Below are positions 11,328 to 44,006 of a stretch of DNA of 44,006 nucleotides, piece by piece. Below the pieces are notes generated by a model. That model saw nothing but the letters and a program-made list of their open reading frames with translations. It did not search any database and was not told the origin of the DNA. Origin of the DNA: a virus. Position numbers and translations under genes: made by a program. Positions within the stretch are counted from its first letter, which is position 1; each line of letters opens with the position of its first letter. Location of the stretch: IMG/VR virus record IMGVR_UViG_3300018424_000047, positions 1 to 44,006 of that record; one strand, 5' to 3'.

Positions 11328-12255
11328 GATTACAGCAGTAGCATATTACGGAGGAATACCAGCAAGGAATAATAATCCTGAAAAGCCTCTAATACTAGAT
11401 AACTTTTTAGCAGGAGTAAGATCCTGCGGAGATGAAGGAATCGCACATAGAGAAATGCAGGCTATACCGTGCGATGTTGCCCTTATACAAGGATTCGTTC
11501 ACGAGGACGGTAAGAGAGGAGTTCCACATCTTACACTAAGACAAAATGCAATTGAAATGCAAAAAAGAAATGGTAAGAAATCATTAATAGTTGATAGCAA
11601 TCTTTTCCTGTTTGCAGATCCAGGTAACACAAAAAGATATTTGCGTTATAGTTTTGATGGAGTTTTTCCTACAACAGGATTTTACTTTGACAAGGACATA
11701 GATCCTTTAAGATGGCAACAGATTAGCAGAGATCTTAATTTACAACTAAAGCCTTATAGAACACAGGGAAATCATATTGTTGTATGTTGTCAACGAAACG
11801 GTGGTTGGTCAATGAAGGGAATGCCTGTTGTTTCCTGGCTGAGAGATACTCTTACAAAACTAAGAGCATTTACAGACAGACCGATCATAGTAAGAATACA
11901 CCCGGGCGATAAAAAATGGCGAACATGGTTTGATTTAAAAATACTAAACGAATTTAAAAATGTTACACTGAGTCAAAAGCATATCAGAGAAGATCTTGTA
12001 AATGCTTGGGCCAGTGTAGTTTATAATAGTTCTCCTAGTATTGCTAGTGTAATTGATGGTGTTCCTACGTTTGTTACTGATCCGGATGTAGAAATAAGCC
12101 AATCCAATGGTGTTTGCAACACCAATCTAAAAAGAATAGAAGATCCAAAACTCTACGATAGGCAGGAGTGGGTTGAAAAATTATCAATGTGTCATTGGAA
12201 CTTTGACGAATTGCGTGACGGAAGAGCCTGGAAATTTTTTAGGCAGTATGTCTAG
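11320..12255 (+). CDS. GT-B-like glycan protein, paralog family copy 4
   Basis: A more diverged family member of 311 residues. The N-terminal half has a Rossmann-like pattern (VALIQGFVHEDGKRG and SLIVDSNLFLFA). The C-terminal half keeps HIVVCCQRNGGWSMKGMP, LRAFTDRPIIVRIHPGDK and the donor loop VVYNSSPSIASVIDGVPTFV, ending SMCHWNFDELRDG. The HPGD and TDRPIIVRIHP segments strengthen the resemblance to GT-B/capsule transferases with their His in the donor site. It ends in a four-base overlap with the convergent minus-strand gene. Confidence 0.76.
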   Translation: MSKITAVAYYGGIPARNNNPEKPLILDNFLAGVRSCGDEGIAHREMQAIPCDVALIQGFVHEDGKRGVPHLTLRQNAIEMQKRNGKKSLIVDSNLFLFADPGNTKRYLRYSFDGVFPTTGFYFDKDIDPLRWQQISRDLNLQLKPYRTQGNHIVVCCQRNGGWSMKGMPVVSWLRDTLTKLRAFTDRPIIVRIHPGDKKWRTWFDLKILNEFKNVTLSQKHIREDLVNAWASVVYNSSPSIASVIDGVPTFVTDPDVEISQSNGVCNTNLKRIEDPKLYDRQEWVEKLSMCHWNFDELRDGRAWKFFRQYV

Positions 12256-21762: not shown

Positions 21763-22485
21763 TTGAAAGTTTTTTTAAAATTTCATAGAACTGATCCAGC
21801 CGCAGTCAACTGTTTAAGATACTGGTTAGAAGTTTTTAAGAACTATGAAACTTTTATCTTATGTGATAGATATGATCCTAGTGAAGAACCGACACCTGAT
21901 TATTTAAAATCGTCGTTGTTAGATTATAATGTAAAAGTAATAAACAGCGACTATTCAATAGGTAAAGAATACTGTATGAATTTAAAAGGTGCAAAGCGTA
22001 ATATGGCTTCTGCGAATATGACAGGGTTTAACCATATATCAAAAAAGCAAAAAGGTTTTTGGATTATAGATGCAGACGATACATTGTTCTTAACTAGGAA
22101 TTATGAAATTATAAGAAACAAATTAAAGGCTGCTGAAGAATATTTTTTAAGTAATAATCTTGATGGCTTTAGTTTAGATTTTTATAGAAATCAAAATAAC
22201 TGTTGGACATTTGGAATATGCTTGTTGAAGTCTACTCTAGATTGGAAAAAAATTAAAGATATTACAAACGAAGAAATAAGACAGACTGGGTTTGCACAAA
22301 ATATCGATACTGTATTCAATCTTTTACGAGAGAAAAAAATATTTAATTTGAAAAATTTTATTTTTTCAAGAACAGCATTTCAACATCAAGAAAATAACTA
22401 CCCTGAGATGCCTCACGGTATATATGTATGGCACGATAATAAATTATGGGATAAAGATTTACAATCGGATGTTGTTGTTTTATAA
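21763..22485 (+). CDS. Putative glycosyltransferase with DADD motif, TTG start
   Basis: A 240-residue protein I cannot place in a family with certainty. KGFWIIDADDTLFL near 97-110 has a D-x-D-D in a hydrophobic strand, as in GT-A enzymes. VFLKFHRTDPAAVNCLRYW at the N terminus and FAQNIDTVFNLLREK in the second half are other ordered blocks. HGIYVWHD near the end may hold a metal ligand. The start is TTG 21763 because AGGAG (21752-21756) lies six bases upstream and no ATG precedes the conserved part. It overlaps the fused nucleotidyltransferase gene by one base. Confidence 0.62.
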   Translation: MKVFLKFHRTDPAAVNCLRYWLEVFKNYETFILCDRYDPSEEPTPDYLKSSLLDYNVKVINSDYSIGKEYCMNLKGAKRNMASANMTGFNHISKKQKGFWIIDADDTLFLTRNYEIIRNKLKAAEEYFLSNNLDGFSLDFYRNQNNCWTFGICLLKSTLDWKKIKDITNEEIRQTGFAQNIDTVFNLLREKKIFNLKNFIFSRTAFQHQENNYPEMPHGIYVWHDNKLWDKDLQSDVVVL

Positions 22486-23996
22486 TGAGTGTAAAAATGA
22501 ATATCATAGTTCAAGCAGGCGGAAGAGGAAGCCGATTACGACACCACACTTGGAATAAACCAAAGTGCTTGGTTAGTGTGAGAGGTAAGCCTTTATTATA
22601 TCATTTATTTGATAGATTTCCAGAAGCAAACTTTGTTATTATCGGTGATTATGCTTATGACAAACTTGAAAAATATTTACAGGTCAACCAACCTAAAGTA
22701 AAATATACACTAATTGAATCTAACGAAAAAGGCACTGCGTCTGGTATTGATATCGCACTTGAAAGCGTTTCCAAAGAAGAACCTTTAATGATTACATGGA
22801 GTGATCTTATTATTGGCAGTCTTCCTGAAATGCCAGAGACAGACCTCCCGGTAGTAGTAATAACTAATGCCTTTACATGTAGATGGACATATAATGAAAC
22901 ACTAAAAGAAACACCAGGTCCAAATGGAATTCCTGGAATATTTTATGTTCGTCAAGCAAAAGATTTTCCTACACCTCCTTCTAGTGGAGAGTTTGTAAAA
23001 TGGTTTAGTAATACTATAAAACATTTTGTAACTATAGAAGCAAATGATTTAGAAGAACTGGGTGACTTTTCAACTATAGAATTACAAAATGACAGAGCAG
23101 GATTTAGTAGATTCTTTAACGAAGTTAAAATACTAGAAGATACTGTAGAAAAGCGTGCCATAGATCCTGAATATAGTCATTTAATAAACAATGAAATATC
23201 TTGGTATAATAGCGTAAGCGATTTAGGATTTAGAAGGATACCTAAAATACATTCAACTGATCCGTTGGTAATGCAACGTGTGAAAGGCGAGCAAGCCTAC
23301 CAAATGAGCGATTTGAGCAACAGAGAAAAGAGAGCAGTTTTAGCAGATTATTTAGATGCTTTAATTTCACTGCATGATCTAGGAAGCAGACCTGCAGATC
23401 ATCAAGATGTAAAGGACACTTATATTAGTAAAACAATAAGTAGGGTAGAAAGCGTTTCTAGTATTATTCCCAACTTTGAACAAAAATCTGTAACAATTAA
23501 TGGAAAAAAATGTAAAAATGTTTTCCAAGATAATATTTGGAATGATATATATAAAGAACTTTTACCTAAGATGTTTTCACCAATTCACGGTGATCCTACA
23601 TTTAGTAATAGTTTAATTGATAAAAATTTAAGAACTTGGTTTATCGATCCTAGAGGATATTTTGCAAAACAAGGAAGCATATGGGGAGACCCTATGTATG
23701 ATTTTGCAAAAGTTTATTACAGTGCAGTCGGAGGATATGATAGTTTTAATAGAAGAAAATTTAAACTACATATAGACAATGAAACTGTAGAAGTGTTAAT
23801 GGAACAACCATTATTCTATGACACAGGTAAAGAAATATTCCAAGAATATTTCGGTAAGGATTTTTATAAAATAGAAATACTACACGGGTTAATCTGGCTT
23901 GCTCTAAGTGGTTATGCAAAAGATGACATTGATAGTGTTATAGGTAGTTTTTACTTAGGATTATATTGGTTACAAAAAGGGCTGGAGGATATTTAA
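22485..23996 (+). CDS. Fusion of sugar nucleotidyltransferase and APH/choline-kinase-like domain
   Basis: Two catalytic domains are joined. Residues 5-230 are a nucleotidyltransferase: NIIVQAGGRGSRL (6-18), KPKCLVSVRGKPLLYH, and TWSDLII with the metal-binding Asp. From about 240 to 500 is an aminoglycoside-phosphotransferase/choline-kinase fold: SPIHGDPTFSNSLID near 366-380 gives the H-G-D-x-x-x-x-N catalytic loop, and TWFIDPRGYF the D-P-R equivalent of DFG. A kinase plus a nucleotidyltransferase on one chain could phosphorylate and then activate a substrate, as the separate LicA/LicC (phosphocholine) or AmgK/MurU pairs do. Order and fusion here differ; the substrate is unknown. Confidence 0.85.
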   Translation: MSVKMNIIVQAGGRGSRLRHHTWNKPKCLVSVRGKPLLYHLFDRFPEANFVIIGDYAYDKLEKYLQVNQPKVKYTLIESNEKGTASGIDIALESVSKEEPLMITWSDLIIGSLPEMPETDLPVVVITNAFTCRWTYNETLKETPGPNGIPGIFYVRQAKDFPTPPSSGEFVKWFSNTIKHFVTIEANDLEELGDFSTIELQNDRAGFSRFFNEVKILEDTVEKRAIDPEYSHLINNEISWYNSVSDLGFRRIPKIHSTDPLVMQRVKGEQAYQMSDLSNREKRAVLADYLDALISLHDLGSRPADHQDVKDTYISKTISRVESVSSIIPNFEQKSVTINGKKCKNVFQDNIWNDIYKELLPKMFSPIHGDPTFSNSLIDKNLRTWFIDPRGYFAKQGSIWGDPMYDFAKVYYSAVGGYDSFNRRKFKLHIDNETVEVLMEQPLFYDTGKEIFQEYFGKDFYKIEILHGLIWLALSGYAKDDIDSVIGSFYLGLYWLQKGLEDI

Positions 23997-32246: not shown

Positions 32247-32482
32247 CCGAATTTAGAACTGGTATATTTAAACTGCTCGAGAAACTCATTGGAGGTAGCA
32301 GTTTAGGGTTAGCAATAACTTATACCCTTGGACACATCATAATTGCTATGATCGTTGTCAAACTAATAACAGGTGCAACACTTGAAATGGCAGCATTGGA
32401 TGCCGTCATAGAACCAATCATTAATGGTGTTTGGTTTTATATATTACACAGAGCATATAAGAAGTATAAAGGTATAGAATAG
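32243..32482 (+). CDS. DUF2061-like small membrane protein
   Basis: A 79-residue protein with two membrane helices, about 19-44 (SLGLAITYTLGHIIIAMIVVKLITG) and 50-70. The order KLLEKLIGGSSLGLAITY, a middle TGATLEMAALDAVIEPI and an ending YILHRAYKKYKG fits the DUF2061 pattern (short basic start, two helices with a central acidic E-P and a C-terminal basic HRxW/Y-like tail). It probably resides in the host inner membrane. Its last base is the first base of the carbamoyltransferase start. Confidence 0.72.
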   Translation: MTEFRTGIFKLLEKLIGGSSLGLAITYTLGHIIIAMIVVKLITGATLEMAALDAVIEPIINGVWFYILHRAYKKYKGIE

Positions 32483-33954
32483 TGATAACATGGGGAATTT
32501 CAGCAAACAGCCACGACGGATCATTAGCCGTTTTTGACGATGACGAATTAGTATTCGCGAGTCATACGGAAAGATTCAGTGGACTTAAAAATGATCCCCA
32601 TCTTAACAAGCCGATAATCGAATATGCAAAACAGTGGGGTGAACCACAGGAAGTAATATGGTATGAAAAACCATTTAAGAAAACAGTAAGACAAGTAGTT
32701 GCAGGACAGGGATGGAATTGGAATGAAAATAATATCAAGACCTACCTCAAACAATTTAACATTAATGCACCCTTAGGTTACAGTAGCCATCACGAAAGCC
32801 ATGCAGCCGCAGGATATTACACAAGCGGATATACCGATGCTACTATTATTTGCATTGATAGCATAGGGGAGTTTGAAACGCTAACCATATGGGAAGGTAA
32901 AGGAAACAAAATTAATAAAGTATTCAGCCAAGGATATCCTAACAGCATAGGACTATGGTATAGTGCAATGACCCAGCGTGTTGGATTAAAACCCAACGAG
33001 GACGAATACATTCTAATGGGAATGTCAGCATACGGTGATGCAAGAAAACACTATCATCACATGAAGGAAACATTTTTTAAACTAGGTCCTCACATGCATT
33101 GGCAGTTTCCTAGTGTTGAATTTAAATCTAACTTGCACAGGGGTTGTAGATGGTATTTGGAAGGATATAATAGATGGACTGACAAATTAAACATTGCAGC
33201 AGCAACACAATCCTTATACGAGGAAATTTTTATAGGATTGATAGAATATTGTCGTGCAAAATTTAAGAGCAAAAATTTAATTGTAATGGGCGGGTGTGCA
33301 TTAAACTGCAAGGCAAATAGCAAGGCATATAGTTACTATGATAATGTTTGGATAATGCCAAACCCGGGTGATGCAGGAAGTTCCGTCGGTGCTGTATTAG
33401 CAAAGAAACAAAAACACATAAAATGGACTGGACCTTATTTGGGTTATGATATTAAACAGGAATATCCCGTTGATAATTTGTTTAGAGAACTAAAGGACAC
33501 AGGCATAGTAGGAGTTGCTAACGGTAAGGCAGAGTTTGGACCAAGGGCACTTGGTAACAGAAGTTTGTTGGCAGATCCGAGAGGAAAGAACATGAAGGAC
33601 TTAGTGAACACAGTTAAGAAAAGACAAAAGTATCGTCCTTTTGCACCTGCAATTCTAAAAGAACACGTGGAAGAATATTTTTACGGTGAGGTAGGACCAT
33701 ACATGCAATATACTGCAAAGTGCAGAAAGCCTGATGAGTTTCCTGCCATTATTCATGTAGACGGAACATCAAGAGTCCAAACTGTAGGAAAAAATGACAA
33801 CACGGGTTTGAGAGAACTTTTGGAAAGATGGTATGCCAAAACAGGTTGCCCAATGTTATTGAACACTAGTTTAAATATCAAAGGAAAGCCTATGGTAAAT
33901 GATGAAAAGGATGCAAAAAAGTTTGCTCATAAGTATGGTGTGAGTGTATACTAA
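32482..33954 (+). CDS. Carbamoyltransferase, NodU/TobZ type, copy 1
   Basis: Enzymes of this family move the carbamoyl group from carbamoyl-phosphate via carbamoyl-AMP to a hydroxyl. The start is GTG 32482, sharing a base with the previous stop. SSHHESHAAAGYYTSG (100-115) carries the metal-binding His pair. MGGCALNCKANSK near 270 is the ATP-binding part. The C-terminal domain has EFGPRALGNRSLLADPR near 350-366, YRPFAPAIL and LNTSLNIKGKPMV. Length 490 is slightly below the usual 550-600. It would decorate a sugar, nucleoside or glycan; the acceptor is unknown. A second, diverged copy is at 36980. Confidence 0.9.
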   Translation: MITWGISANSHDGSLAVFDDDELVFASHTERFSGLKNDPHLNKPIIEYAKQWGEPQEVIWYEKPFKKTVRQVVAGQGWNWNENNIKTYLKQFNINAPLGYSSHHESHAAAGYYTSGYTDATIICIDSIGEFETLTIWEGKGNKINKVFSQGYPNSIGLWYSAMTQRVGLKPNEDEYILMGMSAYGDARKHYHHMKETFFKLGPHMHWQFPSVEFKSNLHRGCRWYLEGYNRWTDKLNIAAATQSLYEEIFIGLIEYCRAKFKSKNLIVMGGCALNCKANSKAYSYYDNVWIMPNPGDAGSSVGAVLAKKQKHIKWTGPYLGYDIKQEYPVDNLFRELKDTGIVGVANGKAEFGPRALGNRSLLADPRGKNMKDLVNTVKKRQKYRPFAPAILKEHVEEYFYGEVGPYMQYTAKCRKPDEFPAIIHVDGTSRVQTVGKNDNTGLRELLERWYAKTGCPMLLNTSLNIKGKPMVNDEKDAKKFAHKYGVSVY

Positions 33955-33987: not shown

Positions 33988-35421
33988 ATGGCAAATACTA
34001 AAAATTACGATTTCGAAGTTCAAAAAGTATATCTGGAAATGATGCTGGCAGATGCAGAAACATTTGTTCGTTGTCAGGGTATTTTTGATCATACACTTTT
34101 TGATAGAAAGTTACAGGATGCCGCACAGTTTATAAATGAATACACAAAGCAATATAGTGTTATGCCAGACTATGAAACAGTAAATGCAAGTTGCAGAACT
34201 GACTTAACAAGACCATTGGATATAAAAGACGGTCACATGCAATGGCTAATGGATGACTTTGAAAGTTTTACAAGACACAAGGCACTTGAACGTGCAATTA
34301 TTAATTCAGCAGAACTATTAGAAAAGAATGACTATGGACAGGTAGAAGCCATGGTTAAGGATGCTGTGCAGATTGGATTGGCACGTGATATGGGAACAGA
34401 CTATTTTGAGGATCCACGTGCTAGATTAATGGGTTTGAAAGACAAGAACGGCCAAGTTAGCACTGGTTGGGAAAGCATGGATAGAAAACTATTTGGTGGG
34501 TTCAACAGAGGTGAACTAAACATTTTTGCAGGTGGTTCGGGTGCAGGTAAATCTTTGTTCTTGGCGAACTTGGGTGTTAACTGGGCACTACAAGGTTTGA
34601 ACGTTGTTTATCTAACACTAGAACTTTCAGAGCAGTTGGTTAGTATGCGTATTGACAGTATGACCACTGGAATTACAACAAGAGATATTTTTAAGAATAT
34701 CGATGATGTTGAAATGAAAGTTAAGATGATTGGCAAGAAGTCAGGTGCATTCCAAGTTAAGTATATGCCAAGTGGTAAGACTGCAAATGATATTAGGGCA
34801 TATCTAAAAGAGTTTGAAATCAAGACAGGCAAGAAAATTGATGTATTGCTTGTGGATTATCTAGACTTGCTAATGCCAGTTGGAAAAAGAATTAGTGCAG
34901 AAAATTTGTTCGTTAAGGACAAGTATGTATCAGAAGAATTAAGAAACTTGGCAATGGAACTACAGTGTGTGTTTGTAACTGCGGCACAGTTAAACAGGGG
35001 TGCAGTTGAGGAAGTAGAATTTGATCATTCACACATTTCAGGCGGACTGTCTAAGATTCAAACTGCTGATAATGTTATAGGTATTTTTACAAGTCGTGCA
35101 ATGCGTGAGCGTGGTAGATATCAATTGCAGTTAATGAAAACACGTTCGTCAAGTGGTGTTGGTCAAAAAGTAGATTTAGAATTTAATGTTGAAACTCTTA
35201 GAATTAGTGATCTTCCAGAAGATGAACAGGAAGCATCAAACGGAGCAAACAGAGGAAGCAGTAGTATTATAGATTCAATCAAGAGAAAATCTGAAGTTCA
35301 AAGCACCCAAGAAAATGATGATCCGACAAAAGGAGCATCAATAGGCAAAATTAAAGGTAAGGTAGAATCTACTAAACTTAGAGAGATTTTGAATAGCATG
35401 GGTGACAATGAAGAACTCTAA
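33988..35421 (+). CDS. 41: Replicative DNA helicase, T4 gp41/DnaB-like
   Basis: A hexameric 5'-3' helicase of the T4 replisome. The N-terminal helical domain spans about 1-140. The RecA-like domain begins with STGWESMDRKLFGGFNRGEL, then IFAGGSGAGKSLF (180-192) as Walker A. VDVLLVDYLDLLMP-type Walker B is at about 281-292 (IDVLLVDYLDLL), VTAAQLNRGA is motif H3, and SGGLSKIQTADNVIG is motif H4. Length 477 is typical. The ribosome site is AAGGTGAT. A possible but poor promoter (TTGCTC, 18 bases, TATACT near 33923-33952) precedes it. The last 14 bases overlap the next small gene. Confidence 0.94.
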   Translation: MANTKNYDFEVQKVYLEMMLADAETFVRCQGIFDHTLFDRKLQDAAQFINEYTKQYSVMPDYETVNASCRTDLTRPLDIKDGHMQWLMDDFESFTRHKALERAIINSAELLEKNDYGQVEAMVKDAVQIGLARDMGTDYFEDPRARLMGLKDKNGQVSTGWESMDRKLFGGFNRGELNIFAGGSGAGKSLFLANLGVNWALQGLNVVYLTLELSEQLVSMRIDSMTTGITTRDIFKNIDDVEMKVKMIGKKSGAFQVKYMPSGKTANDIRAYLKEFEIKTGKKIDVLLVDYLDLLMPVGKRISAENLFVKDKYVSEELRNLAMELQCVFVTAAQLNRGAVEEVEFDHSHISGGLSKIQTADNVIGIFTSRAMRERGRYQLQLMKTRSSSGVGQKVDLEFNVETLRISDLPEDEQEASNGANRGSSSIIDSIKRKSEVQSTQENDDPTKGASIGKIKGKVESTKLREILNSMGDNEEL

Positions 35422-36979: not shown

Positions 36980-38506
36980 ATGATTTTAGTTGGAATTGCA
37001 GACAACGCACACGACTCTAATATTTCTGCTTGGATAAACGGAACGTTCAAGTATGCAAAGTATGAAAGAGAATCAGGTATAAAACATGGCCGTGCGCCTG
37101 CAATATGGTTTTGGAAAAAACTGGAACAGTGGGGAATAGAGGAAAAGGACATAGACGCATTTGCCTATGTTGAACCACACACATATTACGACAGCGAATT
37201 CGGATACATGGGGCATGATCCAGCACCCTTCTACGGAGAAATCTATCTTACAAAGTATAATGTTCCAAATGGTTGGAATGGTATTTGCAAGCATCTTCCG
37301 GACGATAGATATTTTCTCTTAGACCATCATTACGCACACTTCTTCTCTAACACAACCGTTACATCAGGTGACAAGGCAGTAATAGCAGATACTGGCGGAT
37401 CAAACAATAACAAGACACTGATTGTAGGTAGTGACAGCAGTGAGTTTATAAGGCCCAATAGAGATATTGCATCCAGTGGAAAACTCCTATACAAACTAGG
37501 ACAGAAGATGGGACTGCACGGTGACGAATCCGATGTAATAGGAAAGATAATGGGCCTACAGGCATTTGGAAAGGTTGACAAATACTTTGTTAGAGAATGG
37601 ACAAGCAGAGGAAGAAGTGATGCAGGTGATTTGTATGACTACATAGATAATCTTGATATAGGTGCATCACCTGATAATCCATTCTGGTTAGAAAAGGTAG
37701 CAAGTGTATTCGAAGTGGGCAGAAACTATCAAAAGCAAATGTTTGATGTATTAGGACAGCAGGATTCAAAGATACACTACAGTGGTGGCATAGCACTTAA
37801 CGTGAACTGGAATAGATATATCAAGGATCAGGGTTATGACATTGAGATAGAGCCACACGTTTATGATGGTGGCCTGTCCATAGGTTGCGTTAGATTTTTA
37901 GCCGAACAGTTCGGACAGCAGATAGAAATAGATGACTTCCCTTACATTCAGGATGATGAGGCACCTGAACAATTACCAAAGGATTCCTTGATCAAGGAAG
38001 TGGCAGAAATGCTCGCACAAGGTAAGATAGTAGGATGGTATCAGGGCCATGGAGAACTAGGGCCAAGAGCATTAGGAAACAGATCAATACTAATGAATCC
38101 AACAATTGAAAACGGAAAGGATATTCTGAATCAGAAAGTTAAGAGAAGAGAATACTGGAGACCCTTTGGTGCGAGTGTTAAACAGGACAAGGCATCGGAG
38201 TATTTTGACATGGATTATTCTCCATACATGCTATACACTTCTAAAGTATTAGATGATAGATTAACTAGCGTTACACACGTTGATGGAACATGCAGGCATC
38301 AAACGGTTAACGAAAATCAAAACAGTTTATACTACAGGCTACTGGATGAGTTTGAGAAACTGACAGGTTTGCCAGTATTATTAAATACTTCATTAAACAT
38401 TGGCGGTAAACCAATTGCCGGCAAGATAGATGATGCGATAGAATTATTAAAAAGATCGGATATGGATGCAGTGTGTGCCGGCGATGATCTTTATACCAAG
38501 AAATAG
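36980..38506 (+). CDS. Carbamoyltransferase, NodU/TobZ type, copy 2
   Basis: A 508-residue relative of the 32482 product with the same domain order. LLDHHYAHFFSN near 114-125 is the metal-binding region, VIADTGGSNNNKTL the first ATP-binding loop and YSGGIALNVNWN a second. GELGPRALGNRSILMNP near 358-374 and LLNTSLNIGGKPI near the end complete the C-terminal domain. Differences in the acceptor-side segments (residues 190-250) suggest a different acceptor. It is transcribed from a late-type promoter, whereas copy 1 is inside the replication operon. Confidence 0.9.
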   Translation: MILVGIADNAHDSNISAWINGTFKYAKYERESGIKHGRAPAIWFWKKLEQWGIEEKDIDAFAYVEPHTYYDSEFGYMGHDPAPFYGEIYLTKYNVPNGWNGICKHLPDDRYFLLDHHYAHFFSNTTVTSGDKAVIADTGGSNNNKTLIVGSDSSEFIRPNRDIASSGKLLYKLGQKMGLHGDESDVIGKIMGLQAFGKVDKYFVREWTSRGRSDAGDLYDYIDNLDIGASPDNPFWLEKVASVFEVGRNYQKQMFDVLGQQDSKIHYSGGIALNVNWNRYIKDQGYDIEIEPHVYDGGLSIGCVRFLAEQFGQQIEIDDFPYIQDDEAPEQLPKDSLIKEVAEMLAQGKIVGWYQGHGELGPRALGNRSILMNPTIENGKDILNQKVKRREYWRPFGASVKQDKASEYFDMDYSPYMLYTSKVLDDRLTSVTHVDGTCRHQTVNENQNSLYYRLLDEFEKLTGLPVLLNTSLNIGGKPIAGKIDDAIELLKRSDMDAVCAGDDLYTKK

Positions 38507-39219: not shown

Positions 39220-39296
39220 CTGCTTGTAGCTCAGTTGGATAGAGCGTCAGTTTGCGGAACTGGAGGCCGAAGGTTCGAATCCTTCCAAGCAGGCCA
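39220..39296 (+). tRNA. tRNA-Arg with anticodon GCG, CCA encoded
   Basis: A full cloverleaf. Acceptor CTGCTTG (39220-39226) pairs with CAAGCAG (39286-39292). The D arm is GCTC/GAGC with A at position 20. The anticodon stem is TCAGT (39247-39251)/ACTGG (39259-39263), loop TTGCGGA, and the T arm GAAGG/CCTTC with loop TTCGAAT. The discriminator base is G and CCA is encoded (39294-39296). The anticodon at positions 34-36 is GCG, reading CGC (and CGU by wobble) for arginine. C35 and A20 are arginine identity elements. G34 in an Arg CGN tRNA is unusual, as bacteria normally use ACG, modified to ICG. Confidence 0.92.
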
Positions 39297-39752: not shown

Positions 39753-39872
39753 TTATAGAACTAGCAGCAGCGTAAACACCAACCAAACAGCCAGAAAAAT
39801 GGCAATGCTTGCCAACGGTCCTTGTGGTTTTGGATTAAGGACTGGCTTGCTACTAATCTCGTATGGATTCAC
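39753..39872 (-). CDS. 39-residue membrane peptide, GTG start
   Basis: A short ORF on the minus strand starting at GTG whose first base is the last base of the previous stop (TAGTG). The peptide opens NPYEISSKPVLNPKPQG after the initiator. One hydrophobic helix follows, about residues 21-39 (LASIAIFLAVWLVFTLLLVL region), directly to the stop. It is probably an inner-membrane peptide with its N terminus in the cytoplasm. The tight overlap with the upstream gene supports that it is real despite its length. Confidence 0.62.
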   Translation of the reverse strand: MNPYEISSKPVLNPKPQGPLASIAIFLAVWLVFTLLLVL

Positions 39873-40060
39873 TAGGCACGGTTCCAATGAACGGGTTTTC
39901 CCTGTTCATCCATCACCATGTCGCCTGTGTCCTTATACTGTGCCACCATTATGCCTGAACCAGTCTTGCCAGCAAAATACTTGCAGGGTTTTATGTCTCT
40001 GCCCGCATGCTGTCTCTGGATGTGATTGGTTATTATGCCTTTGGATTTCTTTACAGCCAT
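39872..40060 (-). CDS. Small basic phage protein
   Basis: A 62-residue protein starting MAVKKSKGIITNHIQRQHAG, with a central KPCKYFAGKTGSGIMVAQ and a polar tail ending HWNRA. It is basic at the N terminus with no membrane segment. A strong GGGGAGA ribosome site lies within the end of the preceding gene, and its ATG overlaps that gene's stop (TAATG). Function unknown; the location suggests early expression. Confidence 0.72.
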   Translation of the reverse strand: MAVKKSKGIITNHIQRQHAGRDIKPCKYFAGKTGSGIMVAQYKDTGDMVMDEQGKPVHWNRA

Positions 40061-40209
40061 TATGGTCTCCCCTGTCCAACGTTAAATTTGTGACTGCGCT
40101 TCTTGTGCTTGTTCATGCTGCTCATCTTGCACTTCTTGCGCTTTTGGGCTTGGCTGGTCTTCTTTGGAGTCGCTATGTGTCTTACATACGACTTCGCTAG
40201 TTTTGCCAT
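40060..40209 (-). CDS. 49-residue highly basic phage protein
   Basis: A short minus-strand ORF from ATG 40209. It starts MAKLAKSYVRHIATPKKTS, continues with QAQKRKKCKMSSMNKHKKRS and ends FNVGQGRP. About one third of residues are Lys or Arg. The ribosome site GGGAG is close to the ATG. Similar tiny proteins with an ATPKKTS start and a GQG-type ending are a recurrent marine T4-like type. It could bind nucleic acid. It is first of three overlapping genes (49, 62 and 39 residues) behind an extended -10 promoter. Confidence 0.78.
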   Translation of the reverse strand: MAKLAKSYVRHIATPKKTSQAQKRKKCKMSSMNKHKKRSHKFNVGQGRP

Positions 40210-40264: not shown

Positions 40265-40486
40265 TTATTTTTGGCAGGATTGAGGGGCAAATACGCAGCC
40301 AAGTGCTTCACCTATTGTCTTCATGTTGGCTATGCTGTCAGTGTCAGTTTGTGTGGTCTGTTCCTGCTGGTCCGCATGCTGTTCAATCACCTTGTCAGCG
40401 AGAGGAACCTGTCCACAGCCATGGGTCAGAAAGATGATGCCCACCACTAGGAGTATCCAAAGGTATTTGACGAACTGTCGTTTCAT
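40265..40486 (-). CDS. Small lipoprotein-like protein
   Basis: A 73-residue precursor if ATG 40486 is used: basic MKRQFVKYLW, hydrophobic LLVVGIIFLT, then HGC as a relaxed lipobox (T-H-G-C). The mature part is polar and acidic (ADKVIEQHADQQEQTTQTDTDS), ending with two further Cys. An in-frame ATG at 40501 is an alternative. No clear ribosome site is present. The -3/-2 lipobox residues are not canonical, so lipidation is probable but not certain. It is flanked by the GATAACTACT repeats. Confidence 0.68.
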   Translation of the reverse strand: MKRQFVKYLWILLVVGIIFLTHGCGQVPLADKVIEQHADQQEQTTQTDTDSIANMKTIGEALGCVFAPQSCQK

Positions 40487-40535
40487 GATAGTAGTTATCA
40501 TATAGGGGTTCAATCATAAACAGGCGTGATAAAAG

Positions 40536-40633
40536 CGGCGAAGCCGTCAGCGATTTTTTGCCGCGTAGCGGTTCGCGATTTTAGAGCTGCGAAGCAGCAA
40601 GCGGTAGCGCACGAAATTTGTAAGCAGAATTTC
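40536..40633. repeat. Cluster of GCGNAGC mini-hairpins in a GC-rich gap
   Basis: Between the lipoprotein-like gene and the gene at 40684 lie about 170 bases without a supported gene, unusually GC-rich for this genome. They hold three compact hairpins built on the GCGNAGC core: CGGC-GAA-GCCG (40536-40546), CCGC-GTA-GCGG (40561-40571) and GCTGC-GAA-GCAGC (40586-40598). A GCG-GTAG-CGC element (40601-40610) and a GAAATT/AATTTC inverted repeat (40613-40633) follow. GCGATTTT occurs twice between them. d(GCGAAGC) is known as an exceptionally stable DNA mini-hairpin. The function here is unknown: an origin, extruded promoter, recombination signal or repeat element. Confidence 0.82.
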
Positions 40634-40683: not shown

Positions 40684-40893
40684 TTAAGCAGAAACTATGC
40701 CAGGCGTGTATTCTTCCACCCTAGCAGTCCAAGTCTCACCAGTTCTTGCAGTGAGTTTGGCAGCATACTGCTCCGCAAAGTCCTCGGCCAACTTGCGCTG
40801 TTTTAGCGTAAACTTGGCTTCGCTTAGATTGCGATGCATGAGCGTTTGCTTGGTTACCGTGTTCTGTGCTTTTGCTATTAGATACTTTTGCAT
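40684..40893 (-). CDS. Small basic helical protein
   Basis: A 69-residue protein beginning MQKYLIAKAQNTVTKQTLMH. A long helix follows (SEAKFTLKQRKLAEDFAEQYA), then AAKLTARTGETWTARVEEYTPG. It is basic and soluble. There is no ribosome site; an ATAAATA motif lies seven bases upstream, so the leader is very short. Function unknown. Confidence 0.68.
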   Translation of the reverse strand: MQKYLIAKAQNTVTKQTLMHRNLSEAKFTLKQRKLAEDFAEQYAAKLTARTGETWTARVEEYTPGIVSA

Positions 40894-40900
40894 GATATAC

Positions 40901-40907
40901 TATTTAT
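40901..40907 (-). promoter_or_regulatory. Late-type promoter motif on minus strand
   Basis: ATAAATA (minus strand) lies seven bases before ATG 40893. A TATACT further upstream is a weaker alternative -10. Between 40908 and 41065 I see no gene. Confidence 0.55.
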
Positions 40908-41065
40908 CCTCTAGTATAGAAAGTAGAACCCGTTTGTTCATCTACACACTGTGCCTAGTCTAGCATGCTCCAACGCAGTGCAAATGTTCTTACTTGATTG
41001 TGTGTGAACACTAACAAGTTCTTAATAGTATTTACTGTGTGTGTGCATAACCACCATGAAATAGG

Positions 41066-41281
41066 CTATTTAGACAGTATTTTAACACTGTATGCTGACC
41101 TCGAGCCTAGCAGTGCCAGTGCAAACGTAAGATCACGTGTGTCATGCAGTATAATGGTGTTGTGTGCGTTCTGCGAAGCGTGTATGCCGTGAGTGAACAG
41201 ATCTATTACTGCACAGTGCGTAAGGTTGTCACAGTATTGCACTTCCTTTTGTTCCGGGTATTCAAGCAGAATGGTATACAT
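41066..41281 (-). CDS. Small phage protein, unknown function
   Basis: A 71-residue protein, MYTILLEYPEQKEVQYCDNL at the start, then THCAVIDLFTHGIHASQNAHNT and a C-terminal DLTFALALLGSRSAY. It is mixed strand/helix, His- and Cys-containing, with no membrane segment. GGAG lies ten bases before the ATG and the gene starts five bases after the upstream stop. Shadow frames exist on the other strand, but this frame has the ribosome site and fits the packing. Confidence 0.62.
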   Translation of the reverse strand: MYTILLEYPEQKEVQYCDNLTHCAVIDLFTHGIHASQNAHNTIILHDTRDLTFALALLGSRSAYSVKILSK

Positions 41282-41286
41282 GGTGT

Positions 41287-41499
41287 CTAGACTCCCAAGC
41301 CGTGGTTGGTCTCGTGTGTTATGTCGTGTAGCACGTGGCTATACCGTATGTATAACTGCATGTGTGATTTGGAGTGTGGATCCAGCCAAAAGCGTGTTCT
41401 ATTAACGTGGACTTCATAGTGTATGTCCAATTCCTGCAGTGCTCCAAACACTCCCGGACTGGTTCTCATGTCACGTGTGTATATGCAGTAGTGATTCAT
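41287..41499 (-). CDS. Small phage protein, leaderless late-type gene
   Basis: A 70-residue protein rich in His, Tyr and Arg: MNHYCIYTRDMRTSPGVFGA, then LQELDIHYEVHVNRTRFWLD and HSKSHMQLYIRYSHVLHDIT. ATG 41499 is chosen because ATAAATA lies only four bases upstream; in-frame codons before it would start inside the promoter. No ribosome site is present. Function unknown. Confidence 0.64.
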   Translation of the reverse strand: MNHYCIYTRDMRTSPGVFGALQELDIHYEVHVNRTRFWLDPHSKSHMQLYIRYSHVLHDITHETNHGLGV

Positions 41500-41503
41500 A
41501 CAG

Positions 41504-41510
41504 TATTTAT
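41504..41510 (-). promoter_or_regulatory. Late-type promoter four bases before the ATG
   Basis: On the minus strand ATAAATA is followed by CTGT and ATG 41499. The arrangement closely copies that at 36193 (ATAAATA, CTGAT, ATG). Confidence 0.6.
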
Positions 41511-41694
41511 GAATGGGTCTACAGGTCAAAAAAATTTAGTGCGCGGTTTTTTAAAATCCCAAATGGGTCCTAGCGTGGTGATTTTCTGCTGCGCAAATTT
41601 TTATATATCAGGAAAGTTTATCACCTGCCTGGTGATTTTAGACCACTAGCATTTCAAAACTAGCACTTGCGCATACGCACTATAACCGGTCGCC
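41511..41694. other. Gene-free gap with short repeats
   Basis: I see no gene. It has A/T-rich runs, an ATCACC/GGTGAT hairpin (about 41619-41636) followed on the plus strand by Ts, and a second copy of GGTGATTTT near 41577. The heptamer ACTAGCA is repeated with a 14-base period (41645 and 41659), and CCGGTTA-type repeats lie near 41686-41700. It separates two minus-strand gene groups. Confidence 0.5.
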
Positions 41695-41880
41695 CTAACC
41701 GGCCACCATCGACTCATCACCGATCACGAAAAGAATATTGTCGAATCGATCTCTCACCTCAACTCTCTCCGCATCATAATCGGAACTCGCCTCCATGGCA
41801 ACTTCTTCTGCTTCTTCTTGTGTTTCGTAGAACCCCTCGTAGTGTTCCACGGTGTCCGCGTAGTAGTATATCCTATACAT
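41695..41880 (-). CDS. Small acidic phage protein
   Basis: A 61-residue protein starting MYRIYYYADTVEHYEGFYET, followed by an acidic helix QEEAEEVAMEASSDYDAERV and RFDNILFVIGDES. The pattern (strand, helix with many Glu, strand) suggests a small alpha/beta fold. ATG 41880 follows AGGGAGGTG. It starts just after the upstream lipoprotein stop. Its acidity could fit DNA mimicry, but this is speculation. Confidence 0.75.
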   Translation of the reverse strand: MYRIYYYADTVEHYEGFYETQEEAEEVAMEASSDYDAERVEVRDRFDNILFVIGDESMVAG

Positions 41881-41881
41881 T

Positions 41882-42127
41882 CTAGCACCTCCCTGTCTGG
41901 TGTGGCTTGCGTTGCTCTGGGGGAATGTGGCCCGCACACACCTTGCGTGCTTCCCCTTCCCAATTGGGTATTTGATCGAACAGGGTTTCACCCCGGCTTG
42001 GGTCAGGATCGTATGGACGGTCCATTGGTCCGTGTATGGAGCAGCCTGCCAATACTATCACGAACATGCCCACCAGTATGTTGTAGGCTGCGACTGCTAT
42101 TGCCCTGCCAATGTTCTTATCTTCCAT
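41882..42127 (-). CDS. Small lipoprotein with LAGC lipobox
   Basis: An 81-residue precursor: MEDKNIGRAIAVAAYNILV, hydrophobic core about 10-27, then lipobox LAGC with Cys29. The mature part is Pro-rich and polar (SIHGPMDRPYDPDPSRGETL) with a Cys near the end. A very strong GGGAGGAGGT ribosome site precedes ATG 42127. The start lies inside the 3' end of another lipoprotein gene, so two lipoproteins are encoded in overlapping frames. It is probably envelope-located; the role is unknown. Confidence 0.78.
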   Translation of the reverse strand: MEDKNIGRAIAVAAYNILVGMFVIVLAGCSIHGPMDRPYDPDPSRGETLFDQIPNWEGEARKVCAGHIPPEQRKPHQTGRC

Positions 42128-42264
42128 ACTACCTCCTCCCTAACGGTTGAATCCTTGTATATGTTATATGCGTTCGTGGTGTGTTGCACGTCTCTCCACG
42201 TGGCACCACAGCCCTGTAGAAGAACTGTGGCACATAACATTAGGAGTAATAAACCCTTATTCAT
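42097..42264 (-). CDS. Small lipoprotein with LLQGC lipobox
   Basis: A 55-residue precursor: MNKGLLLLMLCATVLLQGC, then a polar mature part of about 37 residues (GATWRDVQHTTNAYNIYKDS region). ATG 42264 lies in the end of the upstream gene; an ATG two codons earlier (42270) is also possible. Its 3' end overlaps the next lipoprotein start by 31 bases. Net size and paired arrangement recall nested Rz/Rz1 lysis proteins, but order and frames do not prove that. Confidence 0.7.
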   Translation of the reverse strand: MNKGLLLLMLCATVLLQGCGATWRDVQHTTNAYNIYKDSTVREEVVWKIRTLAGQ

Positions 42265-42454
42265 TCGCATTCTTTAGTAATACCATGGCACCAAACACGA
42301 ACATGGTCAATCCAATGCTCGCATACATGATCATCTCACCAATGGTGTTGGCCTGCTCCATGCACTTGCCATCACAGTCACCCGCACTACCAGCCATCAT
42401 TATGAGGCCCAATACTAGTAGAAGGCCTGCTATTGAGTTAATAATCGTTTTCAT
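42257..42454 (-). CDS. Small two-helix membrane protein
   Basis: A 65-residue protein with MKTIINSIAGLLLVLGLIMM as first hydrophobic segment, a short loop GSAGDCDGKCMEQANT with two Cys, and a second segment MIMYASIGLTMFVFGAMVLL. It should be in the inner membrane with a Cys-containing periplasmic or cytoplasmic loop. The ribosome site AAAGGAGCGACA is part of a repeated promoter-leader cassette. The end overlaps the lipoprotein gene by eight bases. Confidence 0.8.
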   Translation of the reverse strand: MKTIINSIAGLLLVLGLIMMAGSAGDCDGKCMEQANTIGEMIMYASIGLTMFVFGAMVLLKNANE

Positions 42455-42484
42455 TGTCGCTCCTTTTGTTTGTTTCATATTATT

Positions 42485-42512
42485 ATAATACATTCTTTAG
42501 AATAAAAGTCAA
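42485..42512 (-). promoter_or_regulatory. Early promoter cassette 1
   Basis: On the minus strand TTGACT (42507-42512), 16-base spacer, TATTAT (42485-42490), followed by AATAATA and AAAGGAGCGA before ATG 42454. The spacer contains the inverted repeat ATTCT-AA-AGAAT (42492-42503), a possible operator. Confidence 0.72.
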
Positions 42513-42514
42513 CC

Positions 42515-42541
42515 AAAAAGAGTGTTGCATTTCTGCAACAC
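42515..42541 (-). terminator. Rho-independent terminator
   Basis: On the minus strand GTGTTGCA-GAAA-TGCAACAC forms a perfect eight-pair stem with GAAA tetraloop, followed by TCTTTTT. It ends the 42556 gene directly before promoter cassette 1. Confidence 0.93.
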
Positions 42542-42555
42542 CCTCTCCGTTAATA

Positions 42556-42945
42556 CTAGTCTGCACGTGATCCCATGTGCATGTTGATGCCATATGATCG
42601 GAACACGTCAGCATATGCCTGGGCACCGATTTCCTTGCAATCCATGCTCTGGCCTCTGTGGTTAGCAGGATCCCAAAGTTGGAGAACACCACCCTGCCAT
42701 GACTTCTTGAAGCCCACTGCCTGTAGCGCCTTGCCCAATTTTGAATTAGATCTTACCTTCACGTCAACCCACGCAAAGCCACAATACATTGGCTCGCCGT
42801 ATTCGTTGCCGCCCGTTTTGCTGTTCCAATCATCCAGGAACTTGCTCACTGCTGCCTTTGCGGCTGCGGTTGCTTCTGCGTGGATCATCTCAACCTTTAC
42901 TAGGTCGAATGTTGGTTGCACTGTTACGGTTTCTTCTTTAAACAT
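42556..42945 (-). CDS. Conserved small phage protein with RGQSMD motif
   Basis: A 129-residue protein starting MFKEETVTVQPTFDLVKVEM, with helix HAEATAAAKAAVSKFLDDW, then MYCGFAWVDVKVRSNSKLGK. LWDPANHRGQSMDCKEIGAQ and a C-terminal YADVFRSYGINMHMGSRAD follow. The C-G-F-A-W and G-Q-S-M-D-x-K-E blocks recur in small phage proteins of unknown function that I know from other marine phages. ATG 42945 follows AAAAAGGAGCGA. It has its own promoter and terminator, so it is a single-gene early unit. Confidence 0.85.
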   Translation of the reverse strand: MFKEETVTVQPTFDLVKVEMIHAEATAAAKAAVSKFLDDWNSKTGGNEYGEPMYCGFAWVDVKVRSNSKLGKALQAVGFKKSWQGGVLQLWDPANHRGQSMDCKEIGAQAYADVFRSYGINMHMGSRAD

Positions 42946-42975
42946 GTTCGCTCCTTTTTCTAAGTTTGTATTATT

Positions 42976-43004
42976 ATAATACGTCCAAAAAGGGGATCTG
43001 TCAA
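42976..43004 (-). promoter_or_regulatory. Early promoter cassette 2
   Basis: On the minus strand TTGACA (42999-43004), 17-base spacer, TATTAT (42976-42981) followed by AATAATAC and AAAAAGGAGCGA before ATG 42945. The -35 overlaps the stop codon of the upstream 50-residue gene. Confidence 0.82.
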
Positions 43005-43153
43005 CCCCTAAATTGCTCCGTCCAAGCCTTGAATACTTCGTATGATTCAGCCTTGGAAAGTCCAAACTCTTCACGCAATACTGCCGGCGCACCAAACATA
43101 TTGATCGAACCCGTTTCACGCAACTCATCCAGAAATTTGAAATACTGTTCCAT
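43001..43153 (-). CDS. 50-residue protein with NMFGA motif
   Basis: A short minus-strand ORF: MEQYFKFLDELRETGSINMF, then GAPAVLREEFGLSKAESYEV and FKAWTEQFRG. The F-L-D-x-L-R-x-x-G-x-x-N-M-F-G-A pattern followed by a helix with F-x-L-S-x-x-E-A/S is a recurrent small-protein family in tailed phages, of unknown function to me. The ATG lies one base after the stop of the upstream gene's TAAG junction. Its stop codon (TGA) is part of the next promoter's TTGACA. Confidence 0.82.
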   Translation of the reverse strand: MEQYFKFLDELRETGSINMFGAPAVLREEFGLSKAESYEVFKAWTEQFRG

Positions 43154-43154
43154 C

Positions 43155-43364
43155 TTACACCCCCTGTAGAATTGATCGTTCCCAGTTGGCTCTACGCTCT
43201 GCCTTAGCCGCGTCAGCCTCGTCTGCTGAACGAAATACTCTACGCTCTACTGGTTGTTGTGAGCAAAATATTTTGAATAAGATCTCACGGTCCACATCAT
43301 CGAACACATTAAGCATTGATGTGAGTCGATCTGTTTGAGTTTGATCTAAATGTAAATGTGTCAT
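43155..43364 (-). CDS. Small helical phage protein
   Basis: A 69-residue protein: MTHLHLDQTQTDRLTSMLNV, FDDVDREILFKIFCSQQPVE, then RRVFRSADEADAAKAERRAN and WERSILQGV. The second half is a strongly charged helix rich in Arg and Glu. It has no membrane segment. ATG 43364 follows GCAGGAGCGACC, the third copy of the shared ribosome-site cassette. The next gene starts one base after the stop. Confidence 0.78.
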   Translation of the reverse strand: MTHLHLDQTQTDRLTSMLNVFDDVDREILFKIFCSQQPVERRVFRSADEADAAKAERRANWERSILQGV

Positions 43365-43394
43365 GGTCGCTCCTGCTTTTTTATTATTACTTAC

Positions 43395-43423
43395 AGTATA
43401 CAGTCATTTTGGACGGCTGTCAA
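43395..43423 (-). promoter_or_regulatory. Early promoter cassette 3
   Basis: On the minus strand TTGACA (43418-43423), 17-base spacer, TATACT (43395-43400), followed by GTAAGTAATAATA and AGGAGCGACC before ATG 43364. The -35 begins four bases after the stop of the 25-residue peptide gene. Confidence 0.85.
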
Positions 43424-43426
43424 CCA

Positions 43427-43504
43427 CTATCGGCCCATGAGGACCAACAGTATGTAGAGGGCACAGGGTAGGAATACCCATGCACCAATTGTGAGTATTT
43501 GCAT
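43427..43504 (-). CDS. 25-residue membrane peptide
   Basis: A very short ORF from ATG 43504: MQILTIGAWVFLPCALYILL, then VLMGR. Nearly the whole peptide is one membrane helix with a C-terminal Arg. The ribosome site is weak, which lowers confidence, but packing between a gene and a perfect promoter and the G-A-W-x-x-x-P pattern seen in other tiny phage membrane peptides support it. Confidence 0.52.
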   Translation of the reverse strand: MQILTIGAWVFLPCALYILLVLMGR

Positions 43505-43515
43505 GATGCTGTCCA

Positions 43516-43716
43516 CTATTGGTTCTCCATCATCTGCAATTTGTCAACCATCTTGAAGAACTGATCAAACATCTCATCGTTCTTGTCCTCGCCCTTGGGG
43601 ATGCAGATTGCCTTGGAATCCTGTGCCTTCACCTCTTCCAGGGCCTGCCTGCACACATCCTCTGTGGGATACGTGATCTGTAGGTTCAGAGCCGCCGCTA
43701 TGAGAATGAACTTCAT
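43516..43716 (-). CDS. Small secreted phage protein
   Basis: A 66-residue protein with a short hydrophobic start MKFILIAAALNLQITYP, compatible with a signal peptide. A polar part follows with two Cys (EDVCRQALEEVKAQDSKAIC) and a C-terminal helix DEMFDQFFKMVDKLQMMENQ. ATG 43716 is chosen because GGGAGGTGG lies upstream; longer in-frame readings begin inside the previous gene. The start shares a base with the upstream stop (TAATG). Confidence 0.73.
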   Translation of the reverse strand: MKFILIAAALNLQITYPTEDVCRQALEEVKAQDSKAICIPKGEDKNDEMFDQFFKMVDKLQMMENQ

Positions 43717-44006
43717 TACGCCACCTCCCTTTCCTTGTAGGGCACTCTCTTGGTGCCCGTTTGTGGAGATACCCTGTGGGCACACTCCAACTTGAAATTA
43801 CGATATTCCTCGTCGTCCTCCTCCAGAGAAGCCAACCATTGCTCCTCGGTCTCCCACTGGATTGGAAACTCCTTCCAGCCTAGGCCGTTGTCCGAGAACG
43901 CCGCCATTACGAACGCAACCGCATCCTGCACACGGTCCAACCCACTAACGATGTAGGTGTCGCCACCCTTCATCTTCCAATAGTGGTTGTTAGAAGAAAA
44001 CTTACC
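43716..44006 (-). CDS. Small acidic phage protein, 5' end outside window
   Basis: The frame is open to the right window edge; ATG 43973 is the first in-window start but eleven sense codons precede it and look coherent (SSNNHYWKMKGGDTY), so the gene probably starts outside. Features are TYIVSGLDRVQDAVAFVMAA, KEFPIQWETEEQWLASLEED and a basic tail KRVPYKEREVA. It is acidic in the middle. Function unknown. GC content is clearly higher than in the replication genes. Confidence 0.7.
   Translation of the reverse strand, partial: GKFSSNNHYWKMKGGDTYIVSGLDRVQDAVAFVMAAFSDNGLGWKEFPIQWETEEQWLASLEEDDEEYRNFKLECAHRVSPQTGTKRVPYKEREVA

Follow-up and report, generated by a model that had tools for sequence, protein, structure and literature searches.

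Long direct terminal repeats have been described for several jumbo phages. The 22,456-bp repeat of CBB is reported from doubled read depth and pulsed-field gels (PMC5259590), that of fEgEco12, 20,993 bp long, is reported as confirmed by restriction digests (PMC13070987), and a terminal repeat of 66 kb has been given for XacN1 (PMC5852040); record annotation made with PhageTerm assigns 19,736 bp to fENko-Kae01 and 20,030 bp to Muenster. By the count of the fEgEco12 paper, only five jumbo phage genomes have determined termini (PMC13070987), and the CBB paper states that the exact physical nature of the CBB genome remains unknown (PMC5259590). The element described here bears on how jumbo phages with 20-kb terminal repeats may set their two genome ends. 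In phage T7, which has a terminal repeat of ~160 bp, the processing of the repeat passes through a hairpin-ended intermediate.

Extra-stable GNA triloops are known as a speciality of DNA, not of RNA. The d(GCGAAGC) mini-hairpin of Hirao and colleagues comes from oligonucleotide work, whereas the identical core is found here in a natural, conserved phage element. GNA loops on G-C stems are reported to reach melting temperatures of up to 78 °C (PMC4686876), and the promoters of phage N4 are given as short GC-rich hairpins having a 3-base loop with a sheared G:A pair (PMC4496689). The GNA mini-hairpin itself is already known, and we found no description of the present element in the open-licence literature searched. 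The observations described below give good support to the view that it is a conserved cis-acting element bounding a 13-20 kb block of tiny early genes, and that it is shared by a large clade of uncultured, T4-like jumbo phages.

The island and its neighbouring genes

The window, meaning the whole stretch of DNA analysed, corresponds to one linear IMG/VR virus record, 44,006 bases long, with T4-type replication genes for a UvsX-like recombinase, a DNA helicase, a primase and a DnaB/gp41-like helicase. The last of these (33988-35421, plus strand) was used as syntenic anchor; its top matches among annotated phages are in the jumbo Pseudomonas phages PA5oct, Paride and relatives, at 54.6% identity, and the helicase of Agrobacterium phage Atu_ph07 is 52.9% identical to it. 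This replicative helicase is flanked by two carbamoyltransferase genes, both from phage family phrog_1601 (32482-33954 and 36980-38506), which may possibly serve DNA or sugar modification. A protein fusing nucleotidyltransferase-like and APH-kinase-like domains, from a phage family of unknown function (phrog_4098), is encoded at 22485-23996.

The rightward genes and a tRNA-Arg (39220-39296) end near 39.8 kb, where small leftward genes take over; the GC content steps from 0.379 to 0.466 at ~39760. Three small leftward ORFs (39872-40060, 40060-40209 and 40265-40501, minus strand) lie outside the element, before the rightward replication module. On its other side starts a leftward block of tiny genes (40684-44006, minus strand), of which the window holds 3.3 kb and which continues past the window end; its minus-strand ORFs here are 40684-40893, 41066-41281, 41287-41499, 41695-41880, 41882-42127, 42257-42493, 42556-43128, 43001-43153, 43155-43364, 43516-43716 and 43716-43973. 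The island (40534-40633) sits in the gap between the minus-strand ORFs 40265-40501 and 40684-40893, so that its description as gene-free, made earlier by a reader who had the sequence only, is correct; the same description as GC-rich holds for the 250-base bin (0.50), but the enclosing 4-kb region itself stands at 0.46-0.47.

Several of the tiny block genes in the window are preceded by strong sigma-70-like promoters. On the minus strand of 42485-43423, repeated near-consensus sigma-70 promoters and AGGAGCGA ribosome sites stand before tiny genes, and this stretch reads as a host-polymerase early region.

Three mini-hairpins followed by an A/T-rich tail

The island carries three hairpins with perfect stems, formed around GCGAAGC (40538-40544), GCGTAGC (40563-40569) and GCGAAGC (40589-40595), all on the plus strand. 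The outermost, CGGC-GAA-GCCG (40536-40546, plus strand), is seen as CGGC-G(A/T)A-GCCG in L082, L097, L098 and L099. At the position of the second, CCGC-GTA-GCGG (40561-40571, plus strand), the N of the loop alone varies among near relatives, being GTA in L082/L090, GAA in L097, GGA in L098 and GTA in L099. The innermost, GCTGC-GAA-GCAGC (40586-40598, plus strand), is the anchor of the covariance model R1 described below; it is followed on the same strand by the spacer AAGCGGTAGCGC (40599-40610) and by the A/T-rich tail GAAATTTGTAAGCAGAATTT (40613-40632), which fits the EM motif AGCARATTTTT. A repeat finder places the hairpin units 25 and 26 bases apart, start to start.

The sequence-only reading had pointed to three hairpins with a GCGNAGC core within 63 bases, and they are real: not one of 200 dinucleotide shuffles of the window had even two C(GNA)G hairpins inside 63 bases, and the clustering is not due to chance. 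It had further remarked that the cluster is unlike anything else in the window, and the cluster is indeed the unusual part. The bare GCGNAGC word is only mildly enriched: the window has 10, shuffles average 4.5, and 3 in 100 of them get to 10. On both strands of the window there are 8 C(GNA)G hairpins with a stem of at least 4, against a shuffle mean of 2.2. The fold of the whole island is not significantly better than that of shuffles (DNA, z -1.32; RNA of the minus strand, z 0.33), and therefore only the three small hairpins stand out. ViennaRNA with DNA parameters gives nearly equal energies to the GNA loops and to their complements (-3.7 to -3.8 kcal/mol), so that these energies do not tell which strand folds.

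A conserved module downstream of the helicase in related jumbo phages

A search with the helicase, from which the best 80 loci were kept, is the basis of all helicase-anchored counts. Among these 80 loci, clusters of C(GNA)G hairpins are found downstream of the helicase and always on the helicase strand. The DNA downstream of the helicase, 421 kb in all, has GC-rich hairpins in which the triloop is GAA 57 times and the runner-up 15 times, and the upstream DNA is without a comparable GAA excess. The module consists of two to three C(GNA)G hairpins followed by AGCG(GTA)GCG and, last, by an A/T tract; an alignment of 36 such modules, which runs from hairpin through AGCGGTAGC to A/T tract, was used to build R1. 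At E<=0.05, R1 matched 36 of the best 80 helicase-anchored loci, 28 of which had been in its training set, all on the plus strand and 4-8654 nt downstream of the helicase. Among the 80 loci, 35 reach 5 kb or more past the helicase on its downstream side, and 24 of these have a match; with 7 kb or more, 19 of 26 have one and 7 have none. Hairpin and A/T tract are present in L014, L068 and L073, where the R1 match is absent, and in G023 a pattern search located the element although R1 is blind to it. One pattern match, L153, proved on reading to be unrelated GC-rich DNA and was left out of the counts.

Of 34 tails, 32 contain AGCG and 19 contain GGTA, whereas 32 stretches further inside have these motifs 3 times and 0 times, respectively; the A/T tract is present in 22 of 34 tails and in 1 of 32 stretches further inside. 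CTA is not enriched in the tails (16 of 34 against 14.3 in shuffles).

In the 36-sequence alignment, four of the five stem pairs are altered on both sides, with the closing C-G invariant, 95% of the stem cells pair, and the covariation score was reached by none of 500 shuffles, a result that leans towards structure, given that the aligned hairpins had been picked for pairing. Because of that choice a second loop test was made, in which 12 distinct loci were found through the innermost hairpin alone and the 62 bases further out were scanned. Of the triloop hairpins with a stem of at least 4 in these outer bases, 11 of 14 had a GNA loop, where shuffles gave 0.17 on average and never more than 2. 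Stems that vary with compensation and loops that vary mostly at N indicate that the structure is under selection. Being conserved in structure and located in a fixed kind of place in relatives, the C(GNA)G hairpins are very likely functional DNA.

Direct searches found no DNA similarity to the island in annotated phages. The element of a relative gave only short Cellulophaga matches there, in structural or hypothetical genes, which we judged to be due to chance.

A second, inverted copy and the enclosed gene block

R1 was also run over whole records, namely 79 distinct virus records (G032 counted once) and two isolate genomes. Records contain one or two copies of the element, most of them one clear match; PA5oct is without an R1 match, and Atu_ph07 has only one of chance level (E 0.2). 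The sequence-only reading had proposed that position and copy number be looked up in related phages, and the search returned a module that recurs in one orientation downstream of the helicase and is present once or twice per record. Two copies at E<=0.0025 were found in G014, G018, G019, G024, G025, G026, G031, G052, G055, G064, G065 and G070, which represent about eight distinct phages (G024/G031 have identical ends; G025/G026 and G052/G064/G065 look like near-identical groups). In all 12 of these records the copies are inverted, with their A/T tails facing inward, and lie 13.4-20.5 kb apart. Four weaker second matches stand outside this count and do not all obey the inverted, tails-inward rule: G041 (+,+; E 0.0036), G078 (-,-; E 0.039), G054 (+,-; 2.9 kb apart; E 0.045) and G072 (+,+; E 0.087).

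In the six pairs that were read, the block between the copies holds 34-44 ORFs with a mean length of 98-127 aa, mostly in one direction, at a GC content of 0.47-0.51, above that of the surroundings. Whenever the helicase side is known, or the element type points to it, the block genes run towards the helicase-side copy; divergent genes flank the far copy, and the near copy is found in convergent or mixed settings. One or both edges of the GC plateau fall within ~2 kb of an element in G050, G051 and G024, but miss the elements by up to ~5 kb in G019 and G055, and GC is higher just inside than just outside for 37 of the 47 elements tested. The larger genes in the block of G019 (L105, 10518-12972) are those of a MoxR-type AAA ATPase and of a VWA/DUF2201 protein with a VWA-like metallopeptidase domain; such a pair is present as well in PA5oct and in hundreds of other phages.

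Contig ends are unevenly distributed around the element. Among 103 element-bearing rows, in which near-identical contigs are all counted, four end within 100 nt inside the element (0.43 expected), and within 1 kb there are 18 ends inside against 2 outside, where 4.3 would be expected per side; 36 of these rows are helicase-anchored, which makes a near outward end impossible, and the other 67, as counted from the listing, give 12 inside against 2 outside. This excess, which is spread over 1 kb, fits a repeat boundary, and a hypervariable block too. No shared 24-mers were found between the last 20 kb and the first 20 or 40 kb of G051, G023, G020 and G024, the ends of G050 have short local repeats only, so that a second copy of the block was seen at the ends of none of these five long records, and none of the 30-mers sampled at the record ends of PA5oct are in common; assemblers collapse long terminal repeats. 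A search for exchange of gene modules at the element found 35 pairs similar on both sides, 2 similar outside only and 0 inside only, and gave that idea no support.

Discussion

The early-gene block bounded by the element is probably, by analogy with the mapped repeats discussed below, a direct terminal repeat (DTR). The reading that we prefer, tentatively and with ample room left for others, is that the hairpin element of this clade may be a processing or packaging signal located at both ends of that repeat. One signal serving the two ends of a direct repeat would have to be present in inverted copies, and this is the arrangement observed. The element keeps a fixed polarity at the block edges, with the hairpins outside and the tail inside, and concatemeric phage DNA would be recognised and processed there, at each end of the repeat, either ahead of packaging or in its course. 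In the most speculative step, the hairpins would work in the folded state, either extruded from supercoiled DNA or on single-stranded replication intermediates. Hairpin DNA occurs at the terminal-repeat ends of phage T7 too, with the difference that the T7 repeat is much shorter. We consider doubtful the more complete proposal in which arrays of GNA mini-hairpins would mark the two ends of the clade's long repeat and would be read folded by the packaging machinery, as a genome-end signal specific for structure and not purely for sequence, with a DnaA-box origin in the block in addition. If the terminal-repeat reading is right, one computationally recognisable element predicts genome ends across the clade and offers a concrete DNA substrate, and should the hairpins act folded, this would be one of the few natural uses of GNA mini-hairpins in double-stranded DNA phages. 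The sequence-only reading was borne out in part, since the hairpins are conserved and have a definite place; that there is an inverted partner, with a block of genes in between, could not be seen in a single window.

A strong rival, although in itself rather unlikely, is that the element acts in replication at the edges of the early block, as an origin, a fork barrier or a site for initiation on a single strand. Of 47 records, 7 contain paired DnaA boxes, against 0 of 47 for a reversed control pattern; comparison with the element positions puts these pairs inside the block or at its edge (judged in G003 from a weak element match, E 0.017), that of G018 lying only 17 nt outside the far copy, and GNA hairpins are reported to form readily on single strands (PMC4686876). 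The boxes suggest a host-DnaA-type origin somewhere in the block, but in the other six records with pairs they are 1.2-13 kb away from the hairpins, 40 of the 47 records are without pairs, and an exact DnaA box is found within 400 nt of 1 of 34 near elements. The cumulative GC skew peaks near the element, yet it tracks gene direction. As to their location, the sole perfect pairs (TTATMCACA) of their records are at 11426-11530 in G051, where there are five boxes in 105 bases, 61311-61531 in G003, 59074-59093 in G018, 125528 in G052, 17256 in G064, 4872 in G065 and 13-32 in G058. A mobile palindromic repeat of the REP or MITE kind, bacterial or phage, had been another suggestion of the sequence-only reading, and short GC-rich palindromes in an intergenic gap are what it would look like; with one or two copies per record, a fixed polarity and no hit for either of two exact element patterns across 84,980 species genomes of bacteria and archaea, we rejected it as highly improbable. 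Presence in relatives together with the absence of exact-pattern matches from bacterial genomes is the opposite of what an ordinary interspersed repeat would give. A protein-binding array is compatible with the data.

Transcription offers further explanations. The element might be a boundary (a terminator, a pause site or a protection of RNA 3' ends) that keeps outward late transcription, or the rightward replication operon, apart from the early block, a role that we also hold to be unlikely. It often stands directly after the last rightward stop codon (L069, L014, L077, L042), and an outward TAAATA is found within 90 nt outside 17 of 36 elements (shuffle mean 1.2), but is absent at the window copy; in G001, TAAATA precedes 35 of 257 ORF starts against 1 of 257 interior stretches, as we would expect of a T4-type late promoter. 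Two features speak against termination: the genes on either side of the far copy are divergent, those around the near copy being convergent or mixed, and T runs directly after the stem are missing from most copies in either direction. We rejected an intrinsic terminator at the window copy, which is not among the 4 terminator-like sites found by a scan of the window and has no T run directly after the stem. The fixed strand and the compensatory stem changes would also be in keeping with a structured RNA encoded on the outside-to-inside strand, and just outside the stem G-T is seen 18 times against 2 for T-G; but A-C is common there as well (11), and so neither strand is favoured, the RNA fold of the minus strand of the window copy is no better than those of shuffles, and an Rfam search of the window returned the tRNA and one sub-threshold chance match elsewhere, none at the element, which leaves such an RNA improbable. 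The N4-type hairpin promoter for a virion RNA polymerase, raised by the sequence-only reading on the strength of the loops, is barely credible. The loops are indeed of the 3-base GNA type closed by C-G, as in N4 promoters, but the element is an array of two to three hairpins that forms inverted pairs around a gene block, and there is no constant +1 distance or gene orientation. Host-type sigma-70 promoters precede the block genes of the window, and late TAAATA promoters are found in G001. What weighs against the N4 role is that the vRNAP core was found in 0 of 22 records, in a search run without a positive control, and that the directions and positions of the neighbouring genes vary.

The terminal-repeat reading can be compared with the repeats mapped in isolated jumbo phages. 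Those of CBB and fENko-Kae01 contain ~50 tiny early genes that with few exceptions point the same way, and the block here is comparable in length and make-up; their GC is above that of the flanks (0.378 against 0.343 in CBB, 0.373 against 0.340 in fENko-Kae01), as is the case here. There are also clear differences. The helicases of RaK2/CBB/Asterius-type phages are only ~37% identical to that of the window, the CBB repeat is not adjacent to the helicase, and gene content differs, since no MoxR or VWA/DUF2201 gene is named for the CBB repeat whereas the G019 block has both.

Read from outside to inside, the mapped repeat ends (L140/L141, L223/L224, L227-L229 and L222/L225/L226) have TA at the cut in seven of eight cases, in four phages, and AG after the cut in six of eight. 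The TA| motif is inverted at the two ends in CBB, fENko-Kae01 and Muenster, with A/T-rich tracts inside, and is absent from the left end of XacN1. It would thus seem that these phages, too, rely on one signal in inverted copies at the two repeat ends. The AGCG and GGTA of the spacer and the A/T tract of the present element loosely resemble these mapped ends; in contrast to the element, the ends of CBB and fENko-Kae01 showed no C(GNA)G hairpins. Just inside the mapped left terminus of fENko-Kae01 (L223), a non-coding stretch at 83-186 is 76-93% conserved in XbC2, Kaldavass, GAP32, 121Q and others, its counterpart in XbC2 being bases 71-148 of that record, and this stretch is a candidate end or origin signal of the isolated jumbo phages.
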